Positions 4,755 to 19,350 of a DNA stretch of 23,198 bases are shown in pieces. The notes under the pieces were generated by a model, which was not told where the DNA came from, ran no database searches, and saw nothing but the letters and a program-made list of their open reading frames with translations. Location: IMG/VR virus record IMGVR_UViG_3300033143_000494, positions 1 through 23,198 of that record. The stretch is one strand, 5' to 3'. The first letter of the stretch is position 1; each line of letters starts with the position of its first letter. The DNA is from a virus. Both the position numbers and the translations under genes were made by a program.

Positions 4755-5453
4755 TCAACTTGCTTTAGATTTGAATTCTGGGTAAAGATAATTGTGTAAT
4801 GTTAAGTGGCCATTGCGATCTGGATGATAGCCGCATGTTGTAAAAAATGTATCTTTCATTTTGTCCCACGACTTGAGTTTGTTGTTAACTTCTGTAGCAA
4901 TATCATTCCATTCGTCTAATAGATCCGGACGTAGTTCTTTTATTTTAATGCCTAAGTCTGGCCATCTCGGAATGTCACCGTAGATTGATGTATTGTAATC
5001 GTCTGTTAATAATCGACCCCAGCTCGGTACTGCTATTTCTAAGTTGCTAAACGTACTAAGGTCTACATTATTTAAATCACACAAACCGCCAATTAACTTT
5101 AACTTAATATTATACTCAGTCGCTAATGTGTTGGCTTGCGCTAATGAATCAGTTAACGCTTTAACTGTAGTGCCTTTAAGGGAATCGGATACTTGACAAA
5201 TAGTTGACTCAACACATCTAATAGGATCAGTTACTATCCAGTAAAATGTATCAAAGTTAAAATCAAATTTTGGATCTAATCTATTTAGAAATGCTAATAG
5301 TCGAGTTAATGAGTCAGTGTTAGATGAGTTACCAGCGGATAGATTAACAACTTCGGATGATAGTGCTAGATAATTAGTAAAGCCTGGGCCAGATAATTGA
5401 TATGTTTTTGACCATTCGCCAACTCCCCAGCTGTCGCCAGTTATGACTATCAT
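4755..5453 (-). CDS. SGNH/GDSL-like hydrolase family protein (first of three)
   Basis: A 232-residue protein with an SGNH-type layout: block I GDSWGVGEW (residues 6-14, nucleophile Ser8), a block with the conserved Gly-Asn in LSAGNSSN (Gly41, Asn42), and near the C-terminus YHPDRNGHLTLHNYL, where His210 is the likely block V histidine. The usual aspartate three residues before that histidine is a cysteine here (Cys207), so activity is uncertain. SGNH enzymes are esterases or acetyl-hydrolases acting on sugars and lipids; in a phage they may modify glycans of the cell surface or of the virion. Gene context is structural. The ATG lies three bases after the previous stop. Confidence 0.75.
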   Translation of the reverse strand: MIVITGDSWGVGEWSKTYQLSGPGFTNYLALSSEVVNLSAGNSSNTDSLTRLLAFLNRLDPKFDFNFDTFYWIVTDPIRCVESTICQVSDSLKGTTVKALTDSLAQANTLATEYNIKLKLIGGLCDLNNVDLSTFSNLEIAVPSWGRLLTDDYNTSIYGDIPRWPDLGIKIKELRPDLLDEWNDIATEVNNKLKSWDKMKDTFFTTCGYHPDRNGHLTLHNYLYPEFKSKAS

Positions 5454-5456
5454 AAT

Positions 5457-6284
5457 TTAATACGTGGCTGATTGATCTATATAGGAGTTAATAGCTTTTC
5501 TTAATTGAATTACGTCTTGGCTAAGTGTAGCTACTATATCGCCCAACATCATAGCATGAGATTTAGCACGATCTGTGATGCCACCGTGCCCATGTTCAAA
5601 ATCTAATCCGTCAAGTTCGATCGTTGCGTCAAGTATTGCATCACGGATACGTGACAACTTTTCTCTGTACTCCCTAACTTCGTAAGACTGACTTTCTCCA
5701 GTGTCTACTTCACTAATGGCTTCTTCTACTGGGGCAAACATTCTAGTAAGTGCTTGTCCGCGTTTTGACATACGCACCCAACCATCCTTGCAATCTTGTA
5801 TTGCTGCGTCTTCGCCATGTTTCCATCGCATGTCGTGTCCCATCATGCCACCCCAGGAAATTGCTGCTTCTCTTGCTGCGTCCATAACAGTGTCAGGATT
5901 TAGACCGTGTTTGTTAATGTACTCGTCCATGTAGTCAATAACTGCTGACCAATCACTAGAACCCCAGTCACCACCAGCATAAGGATTTTCATCATCGTCG
6001 GCTTCCTCTACATGGACCAATGTCTCAGTAAATCCTGTCATCTTCATCCAAACCTTAATACTATTAAGCTCTTGCCGAGACATAGGAAACTCATTAATTA
6101 TTTCTTCATCGCTTGCATTACTGTCAACCCAATCTCGCAATTCACTAAAAAACTGCATAGGAATAGCATCTAAACCGTTCGCGTCTAGATACGGTTGTAT
6201 AATATCATCTGCGGCATTAGTTGAATCTTCTTCAAAACTCTTAAGGGATTCAAATAAGTTTTTAAGTTGGTCTAGTTCTTTCAT
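5457..6284 (-). CDS. Hypothetical protein with capsid-targeting-like N-terminus
   Basis: A 275-residue protein of unknown function. It starts MKELDQLKNLFESL, almost the same tag as the 168-residue protein at 3497-4003, and L-F-E-S at residues 10-13 fits the prohead-protease cut rule. The remainder is mostly helical with many acidic residues; a Gly/Trp-rich stretch (NPYAGGDWGSSDWSAVIDYM) lies near residues 100-120 and HGHGG near 235. Its ATG overlaps the stop of the upstream gene (ATGA) and is preceded by AGAAAGGAA at good distance. Inferred to be packaged in the head or part of the internal core, because of the tag and neighbours only. Confidence 0.8.
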   Translation of the reverse strand: MKELDQLKNLFESLKSFEEDSTNAADDIIQPYLDANGLDAIPMQFFSELRDWVDSNASDEEIINEFPMSRQELNSIKVWMKMTGFTETLVHVEEADDDENPYAGGDWGSSDWSAVIDYMDEYINKHGLNPDTVMDAAREAAISWGGMMGHDMRWKHGEDAAIQDCKDGWVRMSKRGQALTRMFAPVEEAISEVDTGESQSYEVREYREKLSRIRDAILDATIELDGLDFEHGHGGITDRAKSHAMMLGDIVATLSQDVIQLRKAINSYIDQSATY

Positions 6285-6853
6285 TTCATAATTCCTTTCT
6301 TAGCAGAGCGTTTAGCCATATTAGCCACTACGTCTTTTGCTTTGTCTACTGACATCGCAGCAGGGTCAATATCTTGTTGCCCTTTAAAATGTATTTCGTC
6401 CGGGTTCACGTCCTTAATAACTGATTCTAGATTACCCCTTTCAGCAAGGTCAAATAATGTTTCTTTGGTTAGTGGAAGTCCCATCTTATTAATAATACTA
6501 ATAAATGCGTCAGTGCTAAGTTTTGAAGGGGAATTTTTGTCTTCGGTGCGATCTGCAATTAATTGACTAATGGCTGCAATCTGTTCTTCGTTTGCAGCAT
6601 CTTCTTCAGTGATCTTATTCATCAATTGACGCATATCTGGATATATAGATTCGTTTGTTATTTTGTGATCTGCTATTTCGTGTTGCTGACCACATTGCCT
6701 ACATGCTTGCATTGGATAAAAATGCGGTTTATTATCCCGACTGTCACGATAAGCAAATACTTGTTTAGTTTGGCCGGGATCAATTTTGTTATGCTCACCG
6801 CATTCAGGACACTGAAATGATCCTGTTAATGCTTTGTGTTTAACTGGGTCCAT
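6281..6853 (-). CDS. Zinc-ribbon hypothetical protein
   Basis: A 190-residue protein with four cysteines in two pairs, FQCPECGEH (Cys15, Cys18) and QACRQCGQQH (Cys51, Cys54), a zinc ribbon. The rest is polar and helical with a basic end (KRSAKKGIMK). I chose ATG 6853, one base after the upstream stop, and not the more distal in-frame ATG at 6955, because the extra 34 residues would lie inside the upstream coding sequence and look non-native. T4 has zinc-binding regulators and terminase-type proteins, but I see no further motif that names this one. It is translated with its overlapping downstream neighbour (ATGA). Confidence 0.8.
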   Translation of the reverse strand: MDPVKHKALTGSFQCPECGEHNKIDPGQTKQVFAYRDSRDNKPHFYPMQACRQCGQQHEIADHKITNESIYPDMRQLMNKITEEDAANEEQIAAISQLIADRTEDKNSPSKLSTDAFISIINKMGLPLTKETLFDLAERGNLESVIKDVNPDEIHFKGQQDIDPAAMSVDKAKDVVANMAKRSAKKGIMK

Positions 6854-7239: not shown

Positions 7240-8142
7240 TTAACGACGCTCGCGGCCTAAGTCAACCTCTTCGTCATCTGCTTCTAGATCTAAATCAAAG
7301 TCGTCAGCGCCATCTAAGTCTAGATCCATATCCATCTCGTCGCCCATTCCTAAGTCTAGCTCGCCGCCTAGTTCATCTCCGCCTTCTAAACCATCTAAGT
7401 CTAAGTCGCCTGTACTTGCAACTTCTTGTCCAGTTAACTCTGCAACTGCATTGTTAACGTCTGACTTAGTGCCTTCAAGTGATGATGTTAGTGTATCAAG
7501 TGATCCAGTTAATGCTGTGTTAAACGCTTCTGCTGCGTCAACGCCTTGTGCGTTACGGATGCTATCGTGTAATGCTGGAAGTTCTTTGTACTTGATGTCT
7601 GCAAACTTTTCAATCATGCTTTGAATTTGATCAGCAATGTCTTGAGCTGCAATAGTAGTCTGTGCTTGGCCTATTTCATTTTCCAAAAGCTTCTTAGCTT
7701 TCTTACTTTCAACAATCTTACGCATGAAAGTCTGTGCCGTTTTTTGATTACGTAACACTGCTGTCATGCCTTCTGACAAACGTAGTGCTTTAAGTTGGTC
7801 TTCTGAAAGGTTGCCGCCTAATGCAGCAATCTTTAAGGCCTTAGTTAATAATTTGTTTTCCATTTTGGATTCCTGTATCTGTGTAGTTTTGGTTAATTCA
7901 ATAGCTTGTTTATCAGCTGCTTCATTCACCATAATCAATTTCATGTAGGATGCGTTATTTTCGCTTTCATGTAAATTATGTTTTTGCTTGAACTCAACAA
8001 TTAGTCGGTCTGTTTTATTGAGAAGCTGTACTGACTCTTTCAAGTTCAGATTGGCTATATTATAATCAGTGCCAAATTGGGTCTTAATCAAACTAGCGAC
8101 TGCCTTAGCGTCTACTGGTCTTGTTAAATCTGTTAAATTCAT
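7240..8142 (-). CDS. Virion or prohead-core-like protein with aspartate-rich tail
   Basis: 300 residues, mostly helical. After residue 240 it becomes a long acidic low-complexity tail (repeated Asp/Leu/Gly, about 245-295) ending RERR. Several sites fit the T4 prohead-protease rule: LHES (57-60), VNEA (72-75), IQES (89-92) and IVES (143-146). A helical body, acidic repeats and many cleavage sites are features of scaffold or core proteins such as T4 gp22, but I cannot show homology to it, so the name stays general. The ATG at 8142 is ten bases after AAAGGA, and the gene overlaps the previous one by 38 bases. A weak TAAATA box lies near 8168. Confidence 0.78.
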   Translation of the reverse strand: MNLTDLTRPVDAKAVASLIKTQFGTDYNIANLNLKESVQLLNKTDRLIVEFKQKHNLHESENNASYMKLIMVNEAADKQAIELTKTTQIQESKMENKLLTKALKIAALGGNLSEDQLKALRLSEGMTAVLRNQKTAQTFMRKIVESKKAKKLLENEIGQAQTTIAAQDIADQIQSMIEKFADIKYKELPALHDSIRNAQGVDAAEAFNTALTGSLDTLTSSLEGTKSDVNNAVAELTGQEVASTGDLDLDGLEGGDELGGELDLGMGDEMDMDLDLDGADDFDLDLEADDEEVDLGRERR

Positions 8143-9429: not shown

Positions 9430-10950
9430 TTACCTATGTTGTGCTCGATTTGCAGCGGTAAATTTGCTCCTAGATACTAATTTTACTAGGCCGTCTGGGT
9501 GTTTTACAACATATCCCTCGCCACCTTTCTCGCCGCCTATAGACTGTTGTACTTCTCCTGGATGAGAATCCATTTCATCTACTAGCCAATCCTTTAACTT
9601 CATAATGCCTTTAATAAGTGTCCATAATGCATGTACGCCTTTCTTATTTGCTTTTAGGTAGTTTGAAATATTAGCACGTTTATTGTCTGACAGGTTTTCT
9701 GTGTTTAACCACGCTTCAAAATCATCGCCTAGACTTTCAAGTCCTGTGTCTACACTGTTATTAATGTATTTGTAGAACAATGTATGAATGTTAGCAATAC
9801 CTTTAAGGCCTGCTGGATCGAACAATGTTTTGATTTCTGCTGCATGTTTGTTAGCAAATGCTTCTAACTTATCAATTGGCTTTGTGTTAATCTTTGATGG
9901 TGCGCCCATATACGTAGGAGGAATAGCAAATACTTCATTGCCTTGCATGTGCTTAATTGCGTCCTCTACTGTATTGAACTGTTCGCCAATGTATTTGTGT
10001 AATACAATACCTGTATTACTCTGCCCGATACGTTGTCCTAGCTTCGAACCTTTGTTTACTTCATACCGTACTGTATTAGGCTGGAACACATATCCATTGC
10101 CTTCTACAGTAGGAGTGCTGTAATACATTAGATCGCCGCTCAACATGCCGCGGAATTCTGCAGGTGTTGCTTTTTGGTACTGGTCAAATATGTTCACCAT
10201 ACTTGAAACAAATTGTTTGCGACTGTCGTCCATTGCTGGTTTGCGACTTGAAAACATCTGTCCTAGTTGTTTAGCTGACTTAGCCCGACCATCATACCCT
10301 TTGGCTGAATAACCTGACTTGTCAGTAAGGAAGAATTGACCACTGTCGTCCCTGCCAAATACTATAGCGGGGCTGCCATCCCATTTAATGGTCGTTTCTG
10401 CCTGTGCTTTGCCCTCGGCAAATGCACGTAAAATTTTTATTGATTTGTATAATCCACCCGGACCTTCTTCTAAGACTAAGTCCTCTAAGTGATTCATATC
10501 CCTTAGCTTACCTTCATTCAAAGCGTATACAGTATATGGAGTCTCTACTATCGGCACCATATCTTGGTTAACAATTCTATCGCGTAACCGTGCAAGGAAG
10601 TATTCGTCTGAGTCGTTGGATTCGTGTACTACAGTTTCGTTCGGCAATGGCATCTGAACACCATCCTCCGCTAATATTTCTGCGGCTTCACCTACTAGTT
10701 CTTCAATCTTCTCTGGTTGGTCTTTATGCGTCGCATAAACATATTCTAAAATGCTTTCTACACTTAAATTTAATGGATCAGCTGAGTAGCCCGGTAATAG
10801 TGTTCTAACAATCTCTCTTGGATCTTTGGAAATAGTTTCGTTTGTTATGTTGTCAACAAGACCTGCATCGTGAGACCACGCCAAACCTTGTGCGCTTGCA
10901 ATGCTCGCCATTACAATGTGGCGGTGCGTATCTTGAAACTTTGATTTCAT
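9430..10950 (-). CDS. Putative nucleotidyltransferase (DNA/RNA-ligase-fold) phage protein
   Basis: 506 residues. It resembles a family of large hypothetical proteins of T4-like marine phages (from memory, DUF6267). Read by eye it carries ligase-superfamily motifs in the correct order: motif I TTIKWDGSPA with the candidate nucleotidyl lysine Lys189 and Asp191-Gly192; motif III FRGMLSGDLMY (266-276); a IIIa-like YVFQPNTVRYEV (287-298); motif IV GEGYVVK (477-483, Glu478 and Lys483); and motif V VKLVSRSKF (489-497, Lys490 and Lys496). Between IIIa and IV lies an unusual ~180-residue helical insertion; residues 1-185 form a separate N-terminal region. It may join or cap nucleic acid ends, or be a ligase-like protein that lost activity. 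The ATG overlaps the upstream stop (ATGA). Confidence 0.75.
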   Translation of the reverse strand: MKSKFQDTHRHIVMASIASAQGLAWSHDAGLVDNITNETISKDPREIVRTLLPGYSADPLNLSVESILEYVYATHKDQPEKIEELVGEAAEILAEDGVQMPLPNETVVHESNDSDEYFLARLRDRIVNQDMVPIVETPYTVYALNEGKLRDMNHLEDLVLEEGPGGLYKSIKILRAFAEGKAQAETTIKWDGSPAIVFGRDDSGQFFLTDKSGYSAKGYDGRAKSAKQLGQMFSSRKPAMDDSRKQFVSSMVNIFDQYQKATPAEFRGMLSGDLMYYSTPTVEGNGYVFQPNTVRYEVNKGSKLGQRIGQSNTGIVLHKYIGEQFNTVEDAIKHMQGNEVFAIPPTYMGAPSKINTKPIDKLEAFANKHAAEIKTLFDPAGLKGIANIHTLFYKYINNSVDTGLESLGDDFEAWLNTENLSDNKRANISNYLKANKKGVHALWTLIKGIMKLKDWLVDEMDSHPGEVQQSIGGEKGGEGYVVKHPDGLVKLVSRSKFTAANRAQHR

Positions 10951-12074
10951 TTCATTGCCTTAGACGACACTCTATAATAATCATCTTTCTCATGAGTGAA
11001 TGTTAATAGTTTAGGTTCAATATCATCATCAGCAATCAATGTTTTAATGGCGGCTGCGCCTTCCTTAGGCACACGATGTAGAAACTGCCAAACACTAGCA
11101 GTAGCAACTCGATACCTGGACCATATACCATCTTTCTTAGCAAATACAATCCCGCTATCTTTAGTGATTCTATTTCCTGGCGCATAGACCTCAGCTTGGA
11201 ATTGTTTTTCGCGTTCTAGATTCCAAGGCATCTCCTCATCAGCGAGTAACTCGTCCTCAATATCAAAAAAGAGATCATTGTCTTTATCTATTCCGTTTAT
11301 CTCTAAATTGTGCTCGATAAATTCAGCAGCCATTCCTTTATCTCTTTTTTCAATGCCGGTATCGTATGTTCGGAAATCTTTAAGAATAGCATCTTTGATT
11401 GCTACTTTTACATCTTCTGGCTCAGCTGGCGGAACTGGCTGTTCTTCTGCTGGAGCACCTGTTGGTTTAATAACAACGTCACCGCCAGCGTTATCACTTG
11501 GATCATTAATGGCCGTATTTAATGCTTCTGCTGAGTCCTTATCAAACTCACCTTTTTCGCCTACTGCATCTACTAGTTCTTCAATTTCTTCATCAGTGAG
11601 TTTGTCTCCAACTGCATTTTTTATCTTTGCAGTTATATCATCTTTAGACATTTTAAATGGCTTTTGTGTAGCATCAAATGCCGAATTAACGATATCCGAT
11701 ATCTGAGAAAGTATTTGATCATTGCCTGAGATGCGTGAAGGATCTTGTATTATACTGTTCTTAAGAGTTCCCATGCTTTTTTCGAATTGTGCTTTGTTCT
11801 TGCCGGTGATATCGACCTTGGTGCTTTTTTCTATAACCGCAATGATCAATTTCTCTAGAGCTTTTTCTTTTTCTCTGCCGGCTAGTGTTTTGTCTTGTAA
11901 CAATGCACCAACTTTTAATGCTAGTAGTTTCTGTACAGCATCAGCAATCCGCGGTACGTTTTTCTTTCTGGCTTTAGCTTTATTAATTTGTTGTCGGCCG
12001 ACAGCTTGCGACTGGAGGAAATCACCAATCTTATTTACTAGATTTGCTTCGACTATAAACTCATTTGCTCTCAT
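10947..12074 (-). CDS. Hypothetical head-internal-type protein with capsid-targeting-like start
   Basis: 375 residues. The start MRANEFIVEA closely matches the capsid-targeting sequence of T4 internal proteins (from memory, MKTYQEFI-x-EA), with the prohead-protease cut expected after Glu9 (I-V-E/A). Residues 10-180 are highly charged and helical, a Pro/Glu-rich linker (PAEEQPVPPAEPEDVK) lies near 209-225, and the C-terminal ~150 residues look globular (NLEREKQFQAEVYAPGNR, then RYRVATASVWQFLHRV). No enzyme motif is recognised. It is coupled to the ligase-like gene by a 4-base overlap and to the 82-residue gene by 14 bases. If the tag works, this protein enters the head and may be injected. Confidence 0.8.
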   Translation of the reverse strand: MRANEFIVEANLVNKIGDFLQSQAVGRQQINKAKARKKNVPRIADAVQKLLALKVGALLQDKTLAGREKEKALEKLIIAVIEKSTKVDITGKNKAQFEKSMGTLKNSIIQDPSRISGNDQILSQISDIVNSAFDATQKPFKMSKDDITAKIKNAVGDKLTDEEIEELVDAVGEKGEFDKDSAEALNTAINDPSDNAGGDVVIKPTGAPAEEQPVPPAEPEDVKVAIKDAILKDFRTYDTGIEKRDKGMAAEFIEHNLEINGIDKDNDLFFDIEDELLADEEMPWNLEREKQFQAEVYAPGNRITKDSGIVFAKKDGIWSRYRVATASVWQFLHRVPKEGAAAIKTLIADDDIEPKLLTFTHEKDDYYRVSSKAMK

Positions 12075-12309
12075 TAACCCGTCCTAAACTTCTTTTGAAC
12101 TTTAACGAGTCTTTTTGTTTGATTGAATTTAATAACTTACGAGTAAGGTCTTCAACCTCCTCATTAGTGTAAGTTTCTTCCATTAAGTTTATTAAATTGA
12201 TTGCACTTGCAATGATATTTTCAGCGCGAGTCTCAATTACGTATCGTGAATCACGTGCATGATGCATTAGTTCAAGTTCTTCTAAGATACTGCGAGTGTG
12301 CTTTTTCAT
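12061..12309 (-). CDS. Small helical hypothetical protein
   Basis: 82 residues, almost entirely helical (MKKHTRSILEELELMHHARD, then NIIASAINLINLMEETY), with a basic C-terminus (KFKRSLGRVNESK). It is the first gene after a late-promoter box at 12335-12342 and overlaps the next gene by 14 bases. I recognise it only as the sort of short conserved protein common in T4-like marine phages; no function can be assigned. Confidence 0.75.
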   Translation of the reverse strand: MKKHTRSILEELELMHHARDSRYVIETRAENIIASAINLINLMEETYTNEEVEDLTRKLLNSIKQKDSLKFKRSLGRVNESK

Positions 12310-12354: not shown

Positions 12355-13737
12355 TTATTTTTTAATTTTATTGAGCATAGCATTCAACTTATTCGAACCC
12401 ACTTCAGCTGATACTTTACCTTCTTCTTGTGGTACGCCGCTTGTAATAGTTGATTTTGCTTTAATATCACTTAAAATATTAGATGGAGAACCACTATGGC
12501 CCATGCCGGGCTGGCCGTTGTCAACAATACGCAAAGTATCTACGTCAAAATCTAAATCAATCTTTTGTCCTACGCCTGCTGAACTACGTGTTTTCATAAG
12601 CTGTAACTGGTACTTGCCACGTTCACGCATAGCGCGTGATGTAAAGATACCAAATACATTATCAGCAGTATTAATCTTAGATATACCACCAGAGATCATG
12701 CTGTGATCGAACTCTACTTCTTCTACTGCTGACCTGTTAAGCTGCGAAGCCGTAACCATTACAACGTCAAGTTCTTTACCTAGGTTACGTATTTCTTCCG
12801 ATACGTACTTGTCTTTAACAAATAGGTCACTCGGGCTAACTTTAGCAGACACAGGCATTAATAGATCTAAGTAATCGATGCACATGAAGTCAATTCTTTT
12901 GCCTGACTTAACCTGTAACTCTTTAACAAATGCGCGGATGTCGTTGATGTTGCTTTGTGCTGGGAAGTATTTAATCTGCAAGTTGCCTGCGGACTTTGCC
13001 TTCATCTTAACTTTCATTTCAACATCATCAATGTTCTTAAAGATAGCTTTGCTTGCTGTACCTGTCATCATACTGTCAAGTCGCATAGCACACAAGTCTT
13101 CACTAAGTTCAAGTGTAACAAAAATTCCGCTAAGTCCTGCTTCAACCCAATTAACTGCTAAGTTCTGCATGAACAGTGATTTACCACTACCTGACCCACC
13201 TGCGAATATTTGCAGTTCGCCCTTATTGAATCCGCCGTACAGCTTTTGATCCATTGTTGCCCAGCCAGTACTTGTTTGGCCGTTATTATCTTTAATTGAT
13301 TTAAGGCGGCCTTTTGGATCTTCAAAATAGTTTATGCCCATGTCTTTTGTTAAACTAATTTGCACTGCATCTTTAACTAGTTTTTCAATTGGCTCAAAGT
13401 CGCCCAGCTCGAGTAAGTCTGCTGCTTTAAGAACTGCGCGTTCAAGCTCTTGTCGTTTTGTAAATCCTTCGAACTCCTCAAAGAACCAATCGTAATGGCC
13501 TTCGTTGATTTCCTCTGGTAATGGATCTAATTGAACTTCTGTCATTGCGCGAAGTTGCTTTAGCTCTGGCAATGTGCCGAACTTATCTGAATGCTTTTCT
13601 ATAAATTCTGCTGCTGGTCTGAGATCTGGATGGAAGTTTTCAACATTAAAAATGTTTTGTATACGTACGAACGTTGTCGCATCGGCTATCATCATCTCCA
13701 GGAATAATTTTTGTATATCGTATGTGTAATCAGTCAT
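12355..13737 (-). CDS. gp41: Replicative DNA helicase, DnaB/T4 gp41 type
   Basis: Hexameric 5'-3' helicase that unwinds the phage replication fork and associates with primase. 460 residues. After an N-terminal helical domain (1-150) comes a RecA-type core: Walker A GGSGSGKS (180-187), the catalytic glutamate in VTLELSED (Glu210), Walker B FMCIDYLDLL (284-293, Asp288), the sensor-like MVTASQLNRS (327-336, Gln332), and a late conserved Arg/Lys block YQLQLMKTRSSAGVG (376-390). Length fits T4 gp41 (about 475). The start overlaps the end of the primase gene by eight bases, so helicase and primase are made together. The last ~60 residues are a low-complexity tail. Confidence 0.95.
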   Translation of the reverse strand: MTDYTYDIQKLFLEMMIADATTFVRIQNIFNVENFHPDLRPAAEFIEKHSDKFGTLPELKQLRAMTEVQLDPLPEEINEGHYDWFFEEFEGFTKRQELERAVLKAADLLELGDFEPIEKLVKDAVQISLTKDMGINYFEDPKGRLKSIKDNNGQTSTGWATMDQKLYGGFNKGELQIFAGGSGSGKSLFMQNLAVNWVEAGLSGIFVTLELSEDLCAMRLDSMMTGTASKAIFKNIDDVEMKVKMKAKSAGNLQIKYFPAQSNINDIRAFVKELQVKSGKRIDFMCIDYLDLLMPVSAKVSPSDLFVKDKYVSEEIRNLGKELDVVMVTASQLNRSAVEEVEFDHSMISGGISKINTADNVFGIFTSRAMRERGKYQLQLMKTRSSAGVGQKIDLDFDVDTLRIVDNGQPGMGHSGSPSNILSDIKAKSTITSGVPQEEGKVSAEVGSNKLNAMLNKIKK

Positions 13738-14761
13738 GTATTTTCTTCGTCTTTATCTTCTTTATCTTTATCTTTTTTCTTTTAATAAGGTTGTTGAGCA
13801 TAACCTTAGCTTTGACTTTACTCGATGTCTTTGTGCTAATGATACTTAGTATTGCACCAAGTTTGCCGAACTTTTTAACTGCCTCATTAATGTCATGAAC
13901 ATCGGCCGGCCAATTCGGTATGCTTATGCTAAACCCTGCTTCGAGTGCTTGGTTAGCTAATACAAGTCCTGCCTTGTCTTGGTCAGGTACTACAATAATT
14001 TCTTTACCTTGACGTCGAAGTATTGCTTGCTGTTGTTCACTTAATTCGTTGTGTAATACTGCTACACCGCGAATACTTATTGCATCAAACGGCCCTTCAG
14101 ATACAATAATATAATCCCAATCGGATTTTTGCATCTCAAGTCCAAACACGTACCCGGGCTGTTGGTGTTCATTCAAGTATTTCGGCGCCCTGTCATCCAG
14201 GTATCGAGACGTCCATCCTACAACATCTTCACCGTACATGTAAGGAATTAAAATACGCTGCTTATTACGTCCTTGTGCTTGTGGGGTGATCTTAAAAGGA
14301 TAATCATGATAATCCAACCCACGCGCATCTTTAAGATAATCAATTGCCCATTTATCACATGTCATAATACTGCGGGCTGAAGTTGGCAGCTCTTGCTTCT
14401 TAAAAAATATGTTACGTTGAATAACCTCGTTGCGTGAGTTTGTACGATCCTTAGCAATGTCGTAAATCTTCTTATTCTTTAAGCTATCTAAATTAATCTT
14501 TTGGATAGTGGCTTCGTCAACTCCCATCCACTGCAATAACTTTTTAGATTTTAAACTTAGTTGCTGCCCACTTACAAACCGTGTTTTAAATCCACAGTTG
14601 AAACAATGGTACGACCAATCACCACCATCAAGAATCAATCCGCCTCGCTTACGTTTGTCGGGTGTTTCTCCATTGTGTATACAACAGGGTGCATTGAAAG
14701 AGAACCAACCACTCGGGCTCTTCTTGGAGCGCGGCGGCAAGTACTGTAGGATGTCAATCAT
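13730..14761 (-). CDS. gp61: DNA primase, T4 gp61 type
   Basis: Makes RNA primers for lagging-strand synthesis with the gp41 helicase. 343 residues, the usual size. The N-terminal zinc-binding domain has Cys26/Cys27, His29, Cys53 and Cys56 (APCCIHNGE, then YHCFNCGFK). The TOPRIM catalytic domain shows the glutamate motif SEGPFDA (221-227) and the DxD motif VPDQDKAGL (259-267, Asp260 and Asp262). The C-terminus is odd: the last ~18 residues are almost only Lys and Ile (KRKKIKIKKIKTKK), encoded by a near-tandem purine repeat. It is coupled to the SGNH gene upstream (ATGA) and to the helicase downstream. Confidence 0.95.
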   Translation of the reverse strand: MIDILQYLPPRSKKSPSGWFSFNAPCCIHNGETPDKRKRGGLILDGGDWSYHCFNCGFKTRFVSGQQLSLKSKKLLQWMGVDEATIQKINLDSLKNKKIYDIAKDRTNSRNEVIQRNIFFKKQELPTSARSIMTCDKWAIDYLKDARGLDYHDYPFKITPQAQGRNKQRILIPYMYGEDVVGWTSRYLDDRAPKYLNEHQQPGYVFGLEMQKSDWDYIIVSEGPFDAISIRGVAVLHNELSEQQQAILRRQGKEIIVVPDQDKAGLVLANQALEAGFSISIPNWPADVHDINEAVKKFGKLGAILSIISTKTSSKVKAKVMLNNLIKRKKIKIKKIKTKKIHD

Positions 14762-15510
14762 TCATTGAGTATAACAGAATCGATCTTGTTGATCAAGAAT
14801 TCTGATAGAACCGCGTGGCCCTTTTCGTTAGGATGTTTTCTCGGAAGGAACAATGAATCTTTGCGTAGCTTATCTCGAATCACTAGCATTTCAAGTGCTG
14901 AAGATGATTCTATTAGAGTAGGAACTTTAAGTTTATGTTGCTTTGTAAGAACATTAAACTGTAGCATTTGAATATTATTTCTAGCTGCCATTCCGTCAAA
15001 TGCTCTAACTATTGTATTGTAGTTAGTATTATGCCAATCTTCGCAATCCGACAATCCATAATGTAACTTATGCAAGTCGCGCCAGTGATCCATACGTGCT
15101 TCTTCGCCTTTGATATCAAAGTCTTCGTTTATCCATACTGAATGTACATAACGGTGGGCGGGGTGTTGATCACTACGTTTAGATTCTTCGTACTTAGTGT
15201 TATACCAACTCAAACGATGCTCTGAAGTTAATCCAACTATCACTAAAGATTCGGCAATGTGTTCCGGAGTGCTGTTATCAAGCCACCAATTAAAATTCCA
15301 TAGCATTGATTGTAAACTGGCACCATTCCACGATAGGTTCTCGTACTCCCACTCGTAGTGGTCGGCTATTAAGCCCGGATACGAATGGTCCGATCTATAC
15401 CGATCATTCTCATGACGGTAAGGCTCTAGACCTTGTTCTTCTAATACCGGATCGATTAACTCATCACCGTATGTCCAACTGCAACCAAATGAAACTAAAT
15501 TCTTTATCAT
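14758..15510 (-). CDS. SGNH-hydrolase-like protein (second of three)
   Basis: 250 residues. Block I is FGCSWTYGDEL (8-18, Ser11), the conserved asparagine is in LSWNGASLQSML (Asn62), and the C-terminal block is RKHPNEKGHAVLSEFL (His226). The Gly-Cys-Ser form in place of Gly-Asp-Ser is common among phage members of the family. Activity is plausible but the substrate is unknown. It lies directly before primase, with a stop/start overlap, behind its own late-promoter box and a TTAGGA ribosome site six bases before the ATG. Despite the operon position no link to replication is visible. Confidence 0.75.
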   Translation of the reverse strand: MIKNLVSFGCSWTYGDELIDPVLEEQGLEPYRHENDRYRSDHSYPGLIADHYEWEYENLSWNGASLQSMLWNFNWWLDNSTPEHIAESLVIVGLTSEHRLSWYNTKYEESKRSDQHPAHRYVHSVWINEDFDIKGEEARMDHWRDLHKLHYGLSDCEDWHNTNYNTIVRAFDGMAARNNIQMLQFNVLTKQHKLKVPTLIESSSALEMLVIRDKLRKDSLFLPRKHPNEKGHAVLSEFLINKIDSVILNE

Positions 15511-15573: not shown

Positions 15574-16497
15574 TTATCTGTGTTGAATTAGTTCTATTGT
15601 GCCTGCTGTAGCTGTAATGGTAAATCTAATATAAGGATGATAACCGCTTACGTTAAAAATATGTAGATCACTTAACGTTAGTGCTTCGGTTTGAATTTCG
15701 TACCACATTCCATCTACGTCTGCTGCGCCTTCAACAACAATATCGCCGCTAAATTGATCCATGTCAATTTGGAATGTATGTAAGTCTGTATCGTCTGTAT
15801 TTAAAATGCTTGTAACAACAGATGGGCCTGGTTGTCCGTCTGGAATAGTAAGTACTTCGCTTGCAATAAATGAAGGCATAATGCTGTCTACTACGTCCAT
15901 AACGCCGCGACCCCCAGCGTTGTCATCTACGTAAACAGGTTCGTATGGTTTGCCGGTGGATACTTGCTCCACACTCCACCCTACTTTACCCGGAGCAATT
16001 AAATCTAACTCTTGCTCTGTAAGAACCAATTTGGTTTGCCCGCGCTCTGTATTAACCATTACTAATGGTTTTTCTAATATTAGCCTGTTACCATCATGCG
16101 ATATTAATCTACACGTGAATGCTAGAGTTGCATATTCAATTAGTGATGCAGTTCCTGTTCCAGTTCCGGTGCCAGTTGCTGTAAACTCAGTGCCTATTAC
16201 GCTATCTGCTGCGCCGATTAATGTAAAGTCTGTTGTGCCTGGCGTTACAATTGAATATATGTTACCAACTACAAAGGTGCCGGCTACTGCCTGCTCAAGT
16301 ATCGATCTCTTATTAAGATCTACACGTTTTTGATCCTGGTTAACAAACTCTATTAGAATTTGATTGTCTGTGCCACGGTGGGCTATTAAGTTCTTTGTAT
16401 ACACTTGGCGGTATCTCCGGCTGAAATATTCACCGCTAGTATCCAATAGGATTACGCGGTGGCGTTGATGATATAAAAATATTTTGGTAGTCATCAT
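15574..16497 (-). CDS. Virion structural-type protein with inserted Gly/Thr module
   Basis: 307 residues, beta-rich, in the style of T4-like marine phage structural proteins. The N-terminus (KIFLYHQRHRVILLDTSGEY, then RRYRQVYTKNLIAHRGTDNQ) looks like a compact domain. Residues 78-120 hold the Gly/Thr module shared with the tail fibre (YSIVTPGTTDFTLIGA, then TGTGTGTGT). After it come VYVDDNAGGRGVMDVVDSIM (about 188-207) and a beta-sandwich-like C-terminus (MWYEIQTEAL, then VSGYHPYIRFTITATAGTIE). Tail or baseplate component is the likely role, by composition only. Two ATGs (16497, 16494) are possible. There is no ribosome site and the promoter-like box ends only eight bases before the first ATG. 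Confidence 0.75.
   Translation of the reverse strand: MMTTKIFLYHQRHRVILLDTSGEYFSRRYRQVYTKNLIAHRGTDNQILIEFVNQDQKRVDLNKRSILEQAVAGTFVVGNIYSIVTPGTTDFTLIGAADSVIGTEFTATGTGTGTGTASLIEYATLAFTCRLISHDGNRLILEKPLVMVNTERGQTKLVLTEQELDLIAPGKVGWSVEQVSTGKPYEPVYVDDNAGGRGVMDVVDSIMPSFIASEVLTIPDGQPGPSVVTSILNTDDTDLHTFQIDMDQFSGDIVVEGAADVDGMWYEIQTEALTLSDLHIFNVSGYHPYIRFTITATAGTIELIQHR
16138..16266 (-). repeat. Gly/Thr-rich protein module, copy C, within the virion protein
   Basis: Codes residues 78-120: GNIYSIVTPGTTDFTLIGAA, then GTEFTATGTGTGTGTAS. It is closest to copy B of the tail fibre, with which it shares GTTDFT-x-IGA and FTA-x-G. The TGTGTGTGT run is encoded by imperfect 6-bp repeats. Confidence 0.78.
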
Positions 16498-16990: not shown

Positions 16991-17560
16991 TTAAATATCC
17001 TGCATCGTATCAACAATATTCATATGTAACGCGACTAACACTGCATAGCTAACTGAGTGCGATTGTTTGAATGCATATCCATCTTCAACTTTATCCCATA
17101 TGGTTTCTGCCATTTCTTTCCACGGCCTACCTATTAGATGCTTCTTAGCAGGTCTTAGAGCTGCTATAAACATGGCCATGCGCGGTATAGTGTCTGGCAT
17201 GCATTGTGCTATTTGTGTAGGGTAGTTCGCAATGTGTACAATCTGCTCAACAAACTCAGGTTCTTTTAAACGTTCCCACGGTGGAGTGCGGTCTAACATT
17301 TCTTTGTAGTGTTTTTCATTCTTAATGTGTTGGTAAACTGATACGTTTAAGAAGTCAATTTTAAAATAGCCGCGCTCGTCAGCTTCTTTAAAGTGCAAAG
17401 AAGAAGCATCAAGCATTGGGTCATAAGGAATGGGCTGTACATAAACGCCGCTATTGTGTCGTTCAGGTTTTTCCTTGTGTAACTTCCGCGCCGGGGTGTG
17501 CTTGATATGTTGTAATATATCAAGCCTGTTCGCAAAATCAATATCAATATCAGCTGACAT
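16991..17560 (-). CDS. Miniature DNA polymerase III alpha (DnaE)-like protein
   Basis: 189 residues, against ~1,160 for bacterial DnaE. Motifs of the C-family polymerase core occur in the DnaE order: SADIDIDFANR (2-12) matches the catalytic PDFDVDF motif, with Asp6 and Asp8 in the places of E. coli Asp401 and Asp403; RHNSGVYVQP (34-43) matches KHAGGVVIAP; YFKIDFLNVS (65-74) matches VKFDFLGL, with Asp69 as the third catalytic aspartate; MFIAALRPAKK (130-140) matches the ALFRPGP region; and GYAFKQSHSVSYAVL (161-175) matches GYGFNKSHSAAYAL. The regions between are drastically shortened and the PHP, tau-binding and OB domains are absent. Whether it polymerises is doubtful; a binding or regulatory role at the fork is equally possible. 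It overlaps the 39-residue ORF at its start. Confidence 0.82.
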   Translation of the reverse strand: MSADIDIDFANRLDILQHIKHTPARKLHKEKPERHNSGVYVQPIPYDPMLDASSLHFKEADERGYFKIDFLNVSVYQHIKNEKHYKEMLDRTPPWERLKEPEFVEQIVHIANYPTQIAQCMPDTIPRMAMFIAALRPAKKHLIGRPWKEMAETIWDKVEDGYAFKQSHSVSYAVLVALHMNIVDTMQDI

Positions 17561-17688: not shown

Positions 17689-17943
17689 TCAGCTGAAATG
17701 TTTGCCTTCCTTCATTCGTTTAGCTACAATGTCTGTTACCTTTGATGCTTGTTTAAATGTCATATTACCGATATCAATGTTGTAAACCTTTGGCTTGTTA
17801 TCATCATTTAATCTCGCCCATGTCTTTTCTTCTTCGGTGAGGCTGTTGAAAATACGTTCTTCCTTTTCCCACGGCAACTCAGGTAACTCCACTACGAATG
17901 CACTATAAATCTTATCAAATATTTTTTTACCAACCTGCTGCAT
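17689..17943 (-). CDS. Hypothetical 84-residue protein
   Basis: Polar helical protein (MQQVGKKIFDKIYSAFVVEL, ending TDIVAKRMKEGKHFS). The stretch KPKVYNIDIGNMTFKQASKV near residues 50-69 is the most distinctive part. A strong GAGGAG site seven bases before the ATG supports the start, and the gene overlaps its upstream neighbour by 17 bases. No motif is recognised. It sits between the zinc-finger protein and the DnaE-like pair, so a role in DNA metabolism is possible but unproven. Confidence 0.75.
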   Translation of the reverse strand: MQQVGKKIFDKIYSAFVVELPELPWEKEERIFNSLTEEEKTWARLNDDNKPKVYNIDIGNMTFKQASKVTDIVAKRMKEGKHFS

Positions 17944-18625
17944 CTAACATCTCCTCAACGTACTTAACGTCTGCTACCTTCTTTTCAAATATCGGTTGCC
18001 AGTGATCTGGATCAATTACGGACCAAATCATTTGCATTTGTTCTGATGACAATTTTGCCAAAAACTCTTGTCCGCTTACTGATTGGTAAACTATCCACGG
18101 ACTTACCTTACCTGTTATTATAGCATGGCATAATCTATTTTCACTACCATAACGCATAATATCTTCTGGGCGCATATCCTTTTCTTCACCCCATTCCAAA
18201 CTGTACTCTACTGCCCGTGTTAATGCATCATTAACATTTTCAGTTCTTAATGCTGTATCAAGGAATTGTGTGTACGTTGCATCTGTTGCCCACTTGTCCA
18301 ATTTGATACCGGACGAAACAATCCAATCTATGTACCGGTCAATCTTAATGCACTTTGTATTAATGCAGTAGTTACCAAACTTTACAAATGCAGTGTAATA
18401 CGGACTAGTCGCAAAGTCTTCAAACGTTCTAGTTTTAGTTCTGTCTTGTGCATACTGATAGAACTTAACATACGTGTGCATACCAAGTGTCACACCTTTC
18501 TCGTCTTTGGCATTCCACCTGCGTTTTTGCTCACAGATATGTATCAGGAGCGTTCGCTCACTCTTAAAGTCTTTGTGACAATACTGACATGTCAGTGTGT
18601 CTGTTTTCTCTGTGGTCTTTAACAT
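17927..18625 (-). CDS. Zinc-finger-containing hypothetical protein
   Basis: 232 residues. The N-terminus carries a C2HC-type finger, LTCQYCHKDFKSERTLLIHI followed by Cys-Glu (Cys13, Cys16, His29, Cys31), then the basic QKRRW. The remaining ~190 residues are helical and aromatic (TSPYYTAFVKFGNYC, RYIDWIVSSGIKLDKWATD). It looks like a conserved T4-like marine phage protein of unknown role; a finger followed by basic residues suggests DNA or RNA binding. The ATG overlaps the end of the SGNH gene and has only a weak ribosome site. The first 21 coding bases almost repeat those of the SGNH gene upstream. Confidence 0.78.
   Translation of the reverse strand: MLKTTEKTDTLTCQYCHKDFKSERTLLIHICEQKRRWNAKDEKGVTLGMHTYVKFYQYAQDRTKTRTFEDFATSPYYTAFVKFGNYCINTKCIKIDRYIDWIVSSGIKLDKWATDATYTQFLDTALRTENVNDALTRAVEYSLEWGEEKDMRPEDIMRYGSENRLCHAIITGKVSPWIVYQSVSGQEFLAKLSSEQMQMIWSVIDPDHWQPIFEKKVADVKYVEEMLDAAGW
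18605..18625 (-). repeat. 5'-end repeat, copy 2 (start of the zinc-finger gene)
   Basis: The first 21 coding bases match those at 19330-19350 with two differences, both giving M-x-K-T-T-E-K. Confidence 0.6.
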
Positions 18626-19350
18626 AAAATCTTATTTGTGTTAATGTAGTCTACTAGAAATTTGTTTAAATGTCTATGTTCGCCTGTTGCTGGGTGCCGA
18701 CTTAAGAATGGAATATTCTGCCTTATGTCCTCTGGATCAGACTTAACCCCTTGCTCGTGTTGCCATGGTATAGATAACCAATGCAGGTTCTGAATAATCT
18801 CAGCATTATAATTGTCAAGGAATTTAATATCGGTTGGGTCTAAGAGCAGCGCCTCCCTTAAGAGTTCTTCAGCTGAGTTAAAAACTACAATTTTATGCCC
18901 GCGTGATTTTACACTGTCAATCATCATAGCCAATTGTAGGTACAAGGCGTATATATGTTCTTTTACACTATTGATAGTGTATTGCAAATGAAGATCCACA
19001 TATTTTGATAAGTCGATTACACACTCATCATATTCTCTAGAATCTAATGGAGTTGCATTTCCAAATGATCCCCATTTCTCGTTATTTCGTTTTTTAAGTA
19101 TAGGCAATTCAAATCGATTTAAGTATGTTGTACTAACAATATACAATGTCGGTTCGGTTGCCTGCATACTATCAGCTACTGTTAATCTGATTATAGCACT
19201 GTTGGATAAACCGTCCATAGCGTGAGTGCCCCTATTTGTGATTCCCAATCTAGTAGCTAAATCTTTAACGCCGTGCCCGTCAGCATGATGTTTCATGTAA
19301 CTACAACCACATGTTACAATTTTACTAACTTTCTCCGTGGTCTTTGACAT
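18619..19350 (-). CDS. SGNH-hydrolase-like protein (third of three, most diverged)
   Basis: 243 residues. Block I is TCGCSYMKHH (13-22, Ser17), the conserved asparagine is probably in DGLSNSAIIRL (Asn50), and the terminal block is SRHPATGEHRHLNKFLVDYI (His219). The central part is helical and unlike the other two SGNH-like proteins here. It may be a substrate-binding or inactive family member. It overlaps the gp62-like gene by 26 bases and lies among replication-type genes. Confidence 0.65.
   Translation of the reverse strand: MSKTTEKVSKIVTCGCSYMKHHADGHGVKDLATRLGITNRGTHAMDGLSNSAIIRLTVADSMQATEPTLYIVSTTYLNRFELPILKKRNNEKWGSFGNATPLDSREYDECVIDLSKYVDLHLQYTINSVKEHIYALYLQLAMMIDSVKSRGHKIVVFNSAEELLREALLLDPTDIKFLDNYNAEIIQNLHWLSIPWQHEQGVKSDPEDIRQNIPFLSRHPATGEHRHLNKFLVDYINTNKILC

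Follow-up and report, generated by a model that had tools for sequence, protein, structure and literature searches.

The stretch of viral DNA analysed here (the window, 23,198 nucleotides, from an uncultured T4-like phage) carries a gene for a 506-residue protein that an initial annotation, made from the sequence alone, had described as a hypothetical phage protein with motifs I, III, IV and V of the DNA/RNA ligase superfamily. Is this protein a ligase, and if so, what would it join and when in the infection? The open reading frame and the four motifs were all found where they had been placed (Table 1). In a Pfam search, the protein matched PF19782 (DUF6267) over residues 152–501 with an E-value of 2e-36; its score of 126.6 bits, compared to a curated cut-off of 27, and the coverage of profile positions 4–371 of 376 place it within this family, and it also matched phrog_455 (E 1.7e-25). 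DUF6267 is a family without assigned function that occurs in hundreds of phages, mostly marine and T4-like: tblastn with the window protein matched 74 phage records, a cyanophage member matched at least 464, and a search of viral contigs found the family in at least 580 stretches. We found no publication naming DUF6267, no relevant match in PDB sequence searches with the window protein or with the profile of its family alignment, and no match for the window protein in an NCBIfam search. The window copy differs from the family as described in that part of a second domain is left at its N-terminus.

The family alignment comprised 77 sequences, 22–76% identical to the window protein. Identical in all 77 are Asp157, Lys189, Trp190, Asp191, Gly192, Pro194, Gly272, Asp273, His318, Asn397, Lys453, Glu478, Gly479, Lys490, Val492 and Arg494. 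When relatives of about 298 residues and a copy from a Vibrio phage were included, Lys189, Asp191, Gly192, Lys211, Asp273, His318, Lys453, Glu478, Gly479, Val481, Lys490, Val492 and Arg494 were still invariant, while Trp190 and Gly272 varied. A lack of conservation at Lys189 would have refuted the initial annotation; the residue is invariant and stays the candidate nucleophile, and Lys189, Asp273, Glu478 and Lys490 follow one another in the superfamily order of motifs I, III, IV and V. In contrast, Lys483 and Lys496, likewise put forward as active-site residues, did not hold up, position 483 being lysine in only 4 of the 77 sequences and position 496 being variable. Motif V thus reads K490-x-V-x-R494 and not KxK with Lys496. 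The second lysine of the classic KxK motif V is replaced by Val492, and the acid of motif III is Asp, not Glu. Conservation of these motifs is far beyond chance. The relatives of about 298 residues, which lack most of the helical insert between motifs IIIa and IV, come from cyanophages of the ACG-2014a, P-SSM4, S-RIM14 and S-RIM8 types (L098, L100, L101 and L102), and some of them have QAD instead of QGD in motif III.

Table 1. Features of the window that bear on the DUF6267 gene (residue numbers are those of the 506-residue protein; an arrow marks a candidate cleavage position)
Feature	Position	Strand	Basis
Toprim primase	13730–14761	−	PF13155, E 3.7e-6
DnaB-like replicative helicase	12355–13737	−	PF03796, E 3.7e-20
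82-residue protein, phrog_11854 (annotated virion structural protein)	12061–12309	−	E 1.1e-15
Upstream 375-residue protein with capsid-targeting-like leader MRANEFIVE↓A	10947–12074	−	Leader kept in L002
DUF6267 / phrog_455 protein, 506 residues; predicted ligase-type covalent nucleotidyltransferase domain at about 150–506	9430–10950	−	PF19782, phrog_455, models
C-terminal half of Pol-beta-motif nucleotidyltransferase, residues 4–100	10651–10941	−	HMM positions 134–236 only, E 1.8e-24
Linker, residues 104–150, probably disordered	10501–10641	−	pLDDT <50 for nearly all residues
Candidate prohead-protease site LNE↓G, residues 144–147	10510–10521	−	Linker equivalents in relatives; L/I-X-E rule
Motif I, KWDG (189–192), Lys189 candidate nucleophile	10375–10386	−	Invariant in 77/77
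Motif III, SGDLMY (271–276), Asp273	10123–10140	−	Gly272 and Asp273 in 77/77; strand 268–276
His318, motif IIIa position	9997–9999	−	77/77; strand 313–321; compare RLIG1 His195
Helical insert between IIIa and IV, residues about 327–466, with invariant Asn397 and Lys453	9553–9972	−	Secondary structure of the model
Motif IV, EGYVVK (478–483), Glu478; Lys483 variable	9502–9519	−	Conservation in the alignment
Motif V, KLVSR, Lys490 and Arg494 invariant	9469–9483	−	Protein ends 12 residues on, no OB domain
phrog_14154 protein (annotated virion structural, head and packaging)	7240–8142	−	E 3.7e-16

The AlphaFold model of the window protein had a mean pLDDT of 86.5, and that of a natural, insert-poor variant of 298 residues reached a pLDDT of 91 and a pTM of 0.86. 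In the window model, motif I lies in a loop between strands 186–188 and 195–200, motif III on strand 268–276, His318 on strand 313–321, motif IV on strand 480–484 and motif V on strand 487–491, which is the layout expected of ligase nucleotidyltransferase domains. Helices extend from residue 357 to 461, between IIIa and IV. In VIA comparisons, the best 50 alignments listed for the window model all belonged to the ligase/capping superfamily, with Naegleria RNA ligase as the best match (Z 7.8, rmsd 4.5, 184 residues) and capping enzymes at Z 6.2. For the insert-poor variant, the best 50 listed were all ligases; Naegleria RNA ligase gave Z 8.4, T4 Rnl2 and REL1 6.6 each, Trl1 and an archaeal RNA ligase 6.5 each, and DNA ligases 5.5 or less. 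RNA ligases also dominated the rows that follow DUF6267's own family in a viral structure library. VIA Z-scores of 7–8 are middling by the tool's own note, and we assign the fold because both lists are uniform, each single value being middling. Foldseek searches against the PDB gave best E-values of 0.12 for the window model and 0.14 for the insert-poor variant, neither of them significant, and the top names for the window model were ligases. The DUF6267 domain is thus predicted to adopt the nucleotidyltransferase fold of the ligase superfamily, and we consider it very likely that the family belongs there. Whether the motif residues surround one pocket, as the initial annotation had asked, was judged from the structural alignment and from the position of each motif on the strand or loop expected for it. 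That the motifs arose by coincidence in a structural protein is a reading to which only the weak significance of the single fold searches lends anything; given the invariance in 77 relatives and the agreement of the best 50 rows of two models on one superfamily, we regard it as extremely improbable. The long helical insertion noticed earlier is real in the model. It had also been offered as the reason why sequence searches miss the homology; this explanation was rejected, since the insert-poor natural variants give no better match.

Profile searches against RNA ligase families, also proposed as a check, gave no significant match to Rnl1 or Rnl2. The window protein has no Pfam match to T4 Rnl1 (PF09511) and lacks its KxK motif V (Val492), T4 Rnl2 (PF09414) does not occur in the 25-family Pfam listing obtained for the 77 members, and one DUF6267 relative matches RNA_lig_T4_1 at E 0.029. 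Using hhalign, DUF6267 aligned to Rnl2 with P 0.13, and the best Rnl1 match, also not significant, placed EGYV...KL on EGYV...FKI in register. Because a control comparison of Rnl1 with Rnl2 likewise failed to reach significance, the method has no power here. By sequence, motif V of the form K-x-V-x-R and the Gly-Asp of motif III indicate that DUF6267 is not a member of Rnl1.

Naegleria gruberi RNA ligase (NgrRnl), the best structural match of both models, is about 10–12% identical to DUF6267 and, like it, has motifs I, III, IIIa, IV and V in this order. An OB domain at the N-terminus and a KxK motif V set NgrRnl apart, whereas DUF6267 has the helical insert and K-x-V-x-R. DUF6267 is predicted to belong to the same superfamily as T4 Rnl1 and Rnl2, and it resembles Rnl1 in that the sixth residue of motif IV is not lysine; its chain ends after motif V without the C-terminal domain of either enzyme, it uses Asp in motif III, and it shows no significant sequence or profile similarity to them. 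Motif I of RLIG1 contains Lys and Asp, motif III Glu, motif IIIa His (His195), motif IV Glu and motif V Lys (PMC11494293). DUF6267 agrees with it in motifs I, IIIa, IV and V and differs in motif III, and its ligase-family Pfam match is limited to the one weak hit to RNA_lig_T4_1.

The gene had been said to lie apart from replication genes. This is not the case, as it follows the genes for the primase and the DnaB helicase, with the 82-residue and 375-residue reading frames between them. In cyanophages, uvsX, gp41 and mazG precede the DUF6267 gene, and a cytidylyltransferase gene follows it. Among 82 viral DUF6267 loci, a gene with Pol-beta motifs lay next to DUF6267 in 37 and was fused to it in 5, and an NMNAT-like cytidylyltransferase was adjacent or fused in 23; in one locus (L016), all three domains share a single frame of 1,094 residues. 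The motifs of the Pol-beta-type partner are LG[ST]TG..[TS]SGD[LIM]D.A and QxD. It is assigned on these motifs only, because a PDB profile search with the domain gave no relevant match. When the partner was considered as a candidate for RlaP (RNA-ligase-associated Pol-beta), a separate protein of this type (L026) matched no Pfam family at E 0.01. Pol-beta enzymes of the RlaP family have been linked to phage RNA ligases (PMC7824862). In the Pelagibacter phage HTVC008M (L007), a P-loop protein resembling phage polynucleotide kinases (5730–6392; phrog_505, E 8.5e-8) is encoded two genes downstream of DUF6267. Such a kinase-like protein would complete an end-repair set.

Which substrate would such an enzyme act on? 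The C-terminal OB domain and motif VI of DNA ligases and capping enzymes are absent from DUF6267, whose chain ends 12 residues after Arg494, and this favours an RNA-ligase type over a standard ATP-dependent DNA ligase or a capping enzyme. Our preference for RNA over DNA draws on this missing domain and on the ranking of structural matches, and on nothing else. If the enzyme instead joined DNA, it and its Pol-beta-motif partner could form a small end-joining pair for the phage genome, whether incoming or replicating, in which nicks, gaps or ends would be filled and sealed. A polymerase and a ligase are also an end-joining combination, the position after the primase and helicase genes in the window and after uvsX, gp41 and mazG in cyanophages would suit such a role, and DNA ligases do occur among the structural matches of both models. 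However, motif V without an OB domain or motif VI after it, and the higher rank of RNA ligases in both models, clearest for the insert-poor variant (8.4 compared to 5.5 or less), make DNA joining improbable. A second possibility is that the same fold and chemistry serve no ligation step at all and that AMP or GMP is attached to a protein, to a small molecule or to the end of an RNA, perhaps in conjunction with the NMNAT-like partner, for example in an NAD-linked cap or modification. The altered motif V, the capping enzymes among the matches of the window model and the frequent proximity or fusion of the NMNAT-like protein would agree with this; we nonetheless think it improbable too, as RNA ligases match the models better and no direct sign of another acceptor was seen. 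Joining of RNA ends by DUF6267 is the activity that we infer, and we regard it as fairly probable.

The window copy has an unusual N-terminus. Its syntenic sister (L002) is a fusion of 644 residues that is 76% identical to it, and the first 143 residues of that fusion, which hold the Pol-beta catalytic motifs, are absent from the window protein. The idea that the missing half is encoded in another frame was rejected, since none of the six frames of the window contains a catalytic motif. As judged from this comparison, the window copy has lost its leader and the catalytic Pol-beta half, either by natural deletion or through an assembly join. L003 is the one contig identical to the window, but it begins at residue 145 and so cannot serve to check the junction. 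A more severe view, which concerns this copy and not the family, is that recombination or an assembly join produced a decaying or chimeric gene whose product may be non-functional. The upstream gene is likewise diverged at its 3' end, its leader MRANEFIVE being kept in L002 while the rest of the protein is 31% identical; together with the missing residues and the uncovered junction, this would fit decay. Yet the frame is open, its start is coupled to the upstream gene through ATGA, and all invariant residues of the ligase-like domain are kept, and so we consider decay unlikely.

Several other features of the window were recorded. A module of the form YxIxSxGTTDFTxIGA...GxxFTAxGxGxGTGxV occurs at 2271–2381, at about 2793–2942 and at 16150–16257 (minus strand), twice in a pectate-lyase-like protein of 619 residues and once in a protein of 307 residues, as a repeated insert in unrelated proteins. 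Three proteins (4755–5453, 14758–15510 and 18619–19350, minus strand) start in GDSW-, GCSWT- or GCSYM-type sequences that recall SGNH hydrolases; none has a Pfam match. Two short open reading frames at 16991–17560 and 17689–17943 (minus strand), also without Pfam match, are possibly pieces of one gene, and the first ends in FKQSHSVSYAVLVALHM, which we take to recall bacterial DNA polymerase III alpha.

The link to head proteins was examined through N-terminal leaders. The T4 prohead protease gp21 cleaves according to the rule L/I-X-E (PMC9026906). With cleavage positions placed by this rule, the T4 leaders read MKTYQEFIAE↓A for IPIII and MKTFKEFTSTTTPVSTITE↓A for IPI. Outside the main cyanophage group, stand-alone DUF6267 relatives have N-termini such as MRFYEFKQINTKPLVE↓ADARIQHAED, MRFREIVAE↓AAEG or MQSFREYLAE↓AYAD, and share with IPI and IPIII the layout M-[KR]-x-[FY]-x-E-[FIL]...[LI]xE↓[AGS]; the leader of the window's upstream gene is similar. 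In T4 these leaders are found on small internal proteins, whereas in the DUF6267 relatives they are found on a predicted ligase-like enzyme. A strict [LI]xE[AGS] site was present in 35 of 53 unique N-terminal extensions, compared to 2.3 expected by shuffling (2,000 shuffles, maximum 9; the extensions are related, so that this is not a true probability). Five fused copies, that of the window included, have a site of the [LI]xE↓[GAS] type at the end of the linker that leads into the DUF6267 domain; at the same place it is ITE↓G in L002 and L016, LRE↓S in L048 and LKE↓A in L049. Among other genes beside DUF6267 (L002–L095), 133 of 607 had a strict [LI]xE[AGS] site in their first 30 residues, the comparison value being 4% of internal 30-residue windows.

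Such leaders were also present in 17 of 27 cytidylyltransferases, and virions of S-SZBM1, S-CREM2 and S-SCSM1 have been reported to contain cytidylyltransferases (PMC9146016, PMC10665884, PMC9602691). Most cyanophage DUF6267 proteins begin at the domain itself (MAKNTHLEHLEDD), without leader. The mass-spectrometry table of the S-SZBM1 virion contains SSZBM1_139 and the cytidylyltransferase SSZBM1_140, but not the DUF6267 protein SSZBM1_141 (PMC9146016). As SSZBM1_141 has no leader, its absence from that table fits the leader rule, though not as direct proof. A virion proteome of a leader-bearing member was looked for and not found. An S77 prohead protease and T4 gp23 were not found in the contigs of the window clade that were searched, which are fragments; both were found in the 142-kb phage of locus L083. 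We put the chance that leader-bearing DUF6267 relatives are packaged in the head at about even. Packaging of the window copy itself is unlikely, because its N-terminus (MKSKFQDTHRHIV) contains no [LI]xE leader site. The proposed tie to packaging or to injected proteins is thus retained for the relatives with leaders and for the packaged neighbours, and not for the window copy.

Altogether, the reading that we favour, and to which we give somewhat better than even odds as a whole, is that DUF6267 is an RNA-ligase-like repair enzyme that is head-packaged in many relatives. Lys189 would be adenylylated by ATP, with Asp191, Asp273 and Glu478 making metal and ribose contacts, His318 contacting the ribose, and Lys490 and Arg494 contacting phosphate. 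A nucleic acid with a 5'-phosphate end, most likely an RNA, would then receive the AMP and be sealed. Because Pol-beta-type and NMNAT-like partners are adjacent or fused, we suggest an end-repair set that would add missing nucleotides and seal breaks in RNA of the host or the phage, for example in tRNA. In many relatives, a T4-like leader may direct packing into the prohead, where the prohead protease would cut after [LI]xE, and the enzyme would be injected, which could allow repair from the moment of entry. The window copy, in which the ligase-like domain is intact, probably acts in the cell after synthesis, because its Pol-beta catalytic half and leader are lost. Compared to this, the overall reading of the initial annotation is partly supported, in its ligase-superfamily motifs, with which the predicted fold agrees, and in its link to head proteins, and has to be corrected for Lys483 and Lys496, for the distance from replication genes and for the effect ascribed to the insert.

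A bolder version, which we put forward tentatively and consider rather unlikely, is a head-packaged entry kit of three nucleotidyltransferases, of Pol-beta type, ligase type and NMNAT-like type, that would repair RNA before phage expression. In some phages (L016), the kit would be made as one polyprotein and sorted into the prohead by the T4-like leader; the prohead protease would separate the enzymes at the [LI]xE sites of the linkers, and injection would follow.

The assignment to the ligase type gives DUF6267, a family without function, a biochemistry that can be tested directly, and the relatives of about 298 residues offer a natural minimal form that is useful for this purpose. If the leader-bearing forms are injected, the leader would provide a sequence rule for listing packaged and injected proteins of uncultured marine phages. 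Repair enzymes would in that case be delivered with the genome and could counter host nucleases at the earliest moment of infection.
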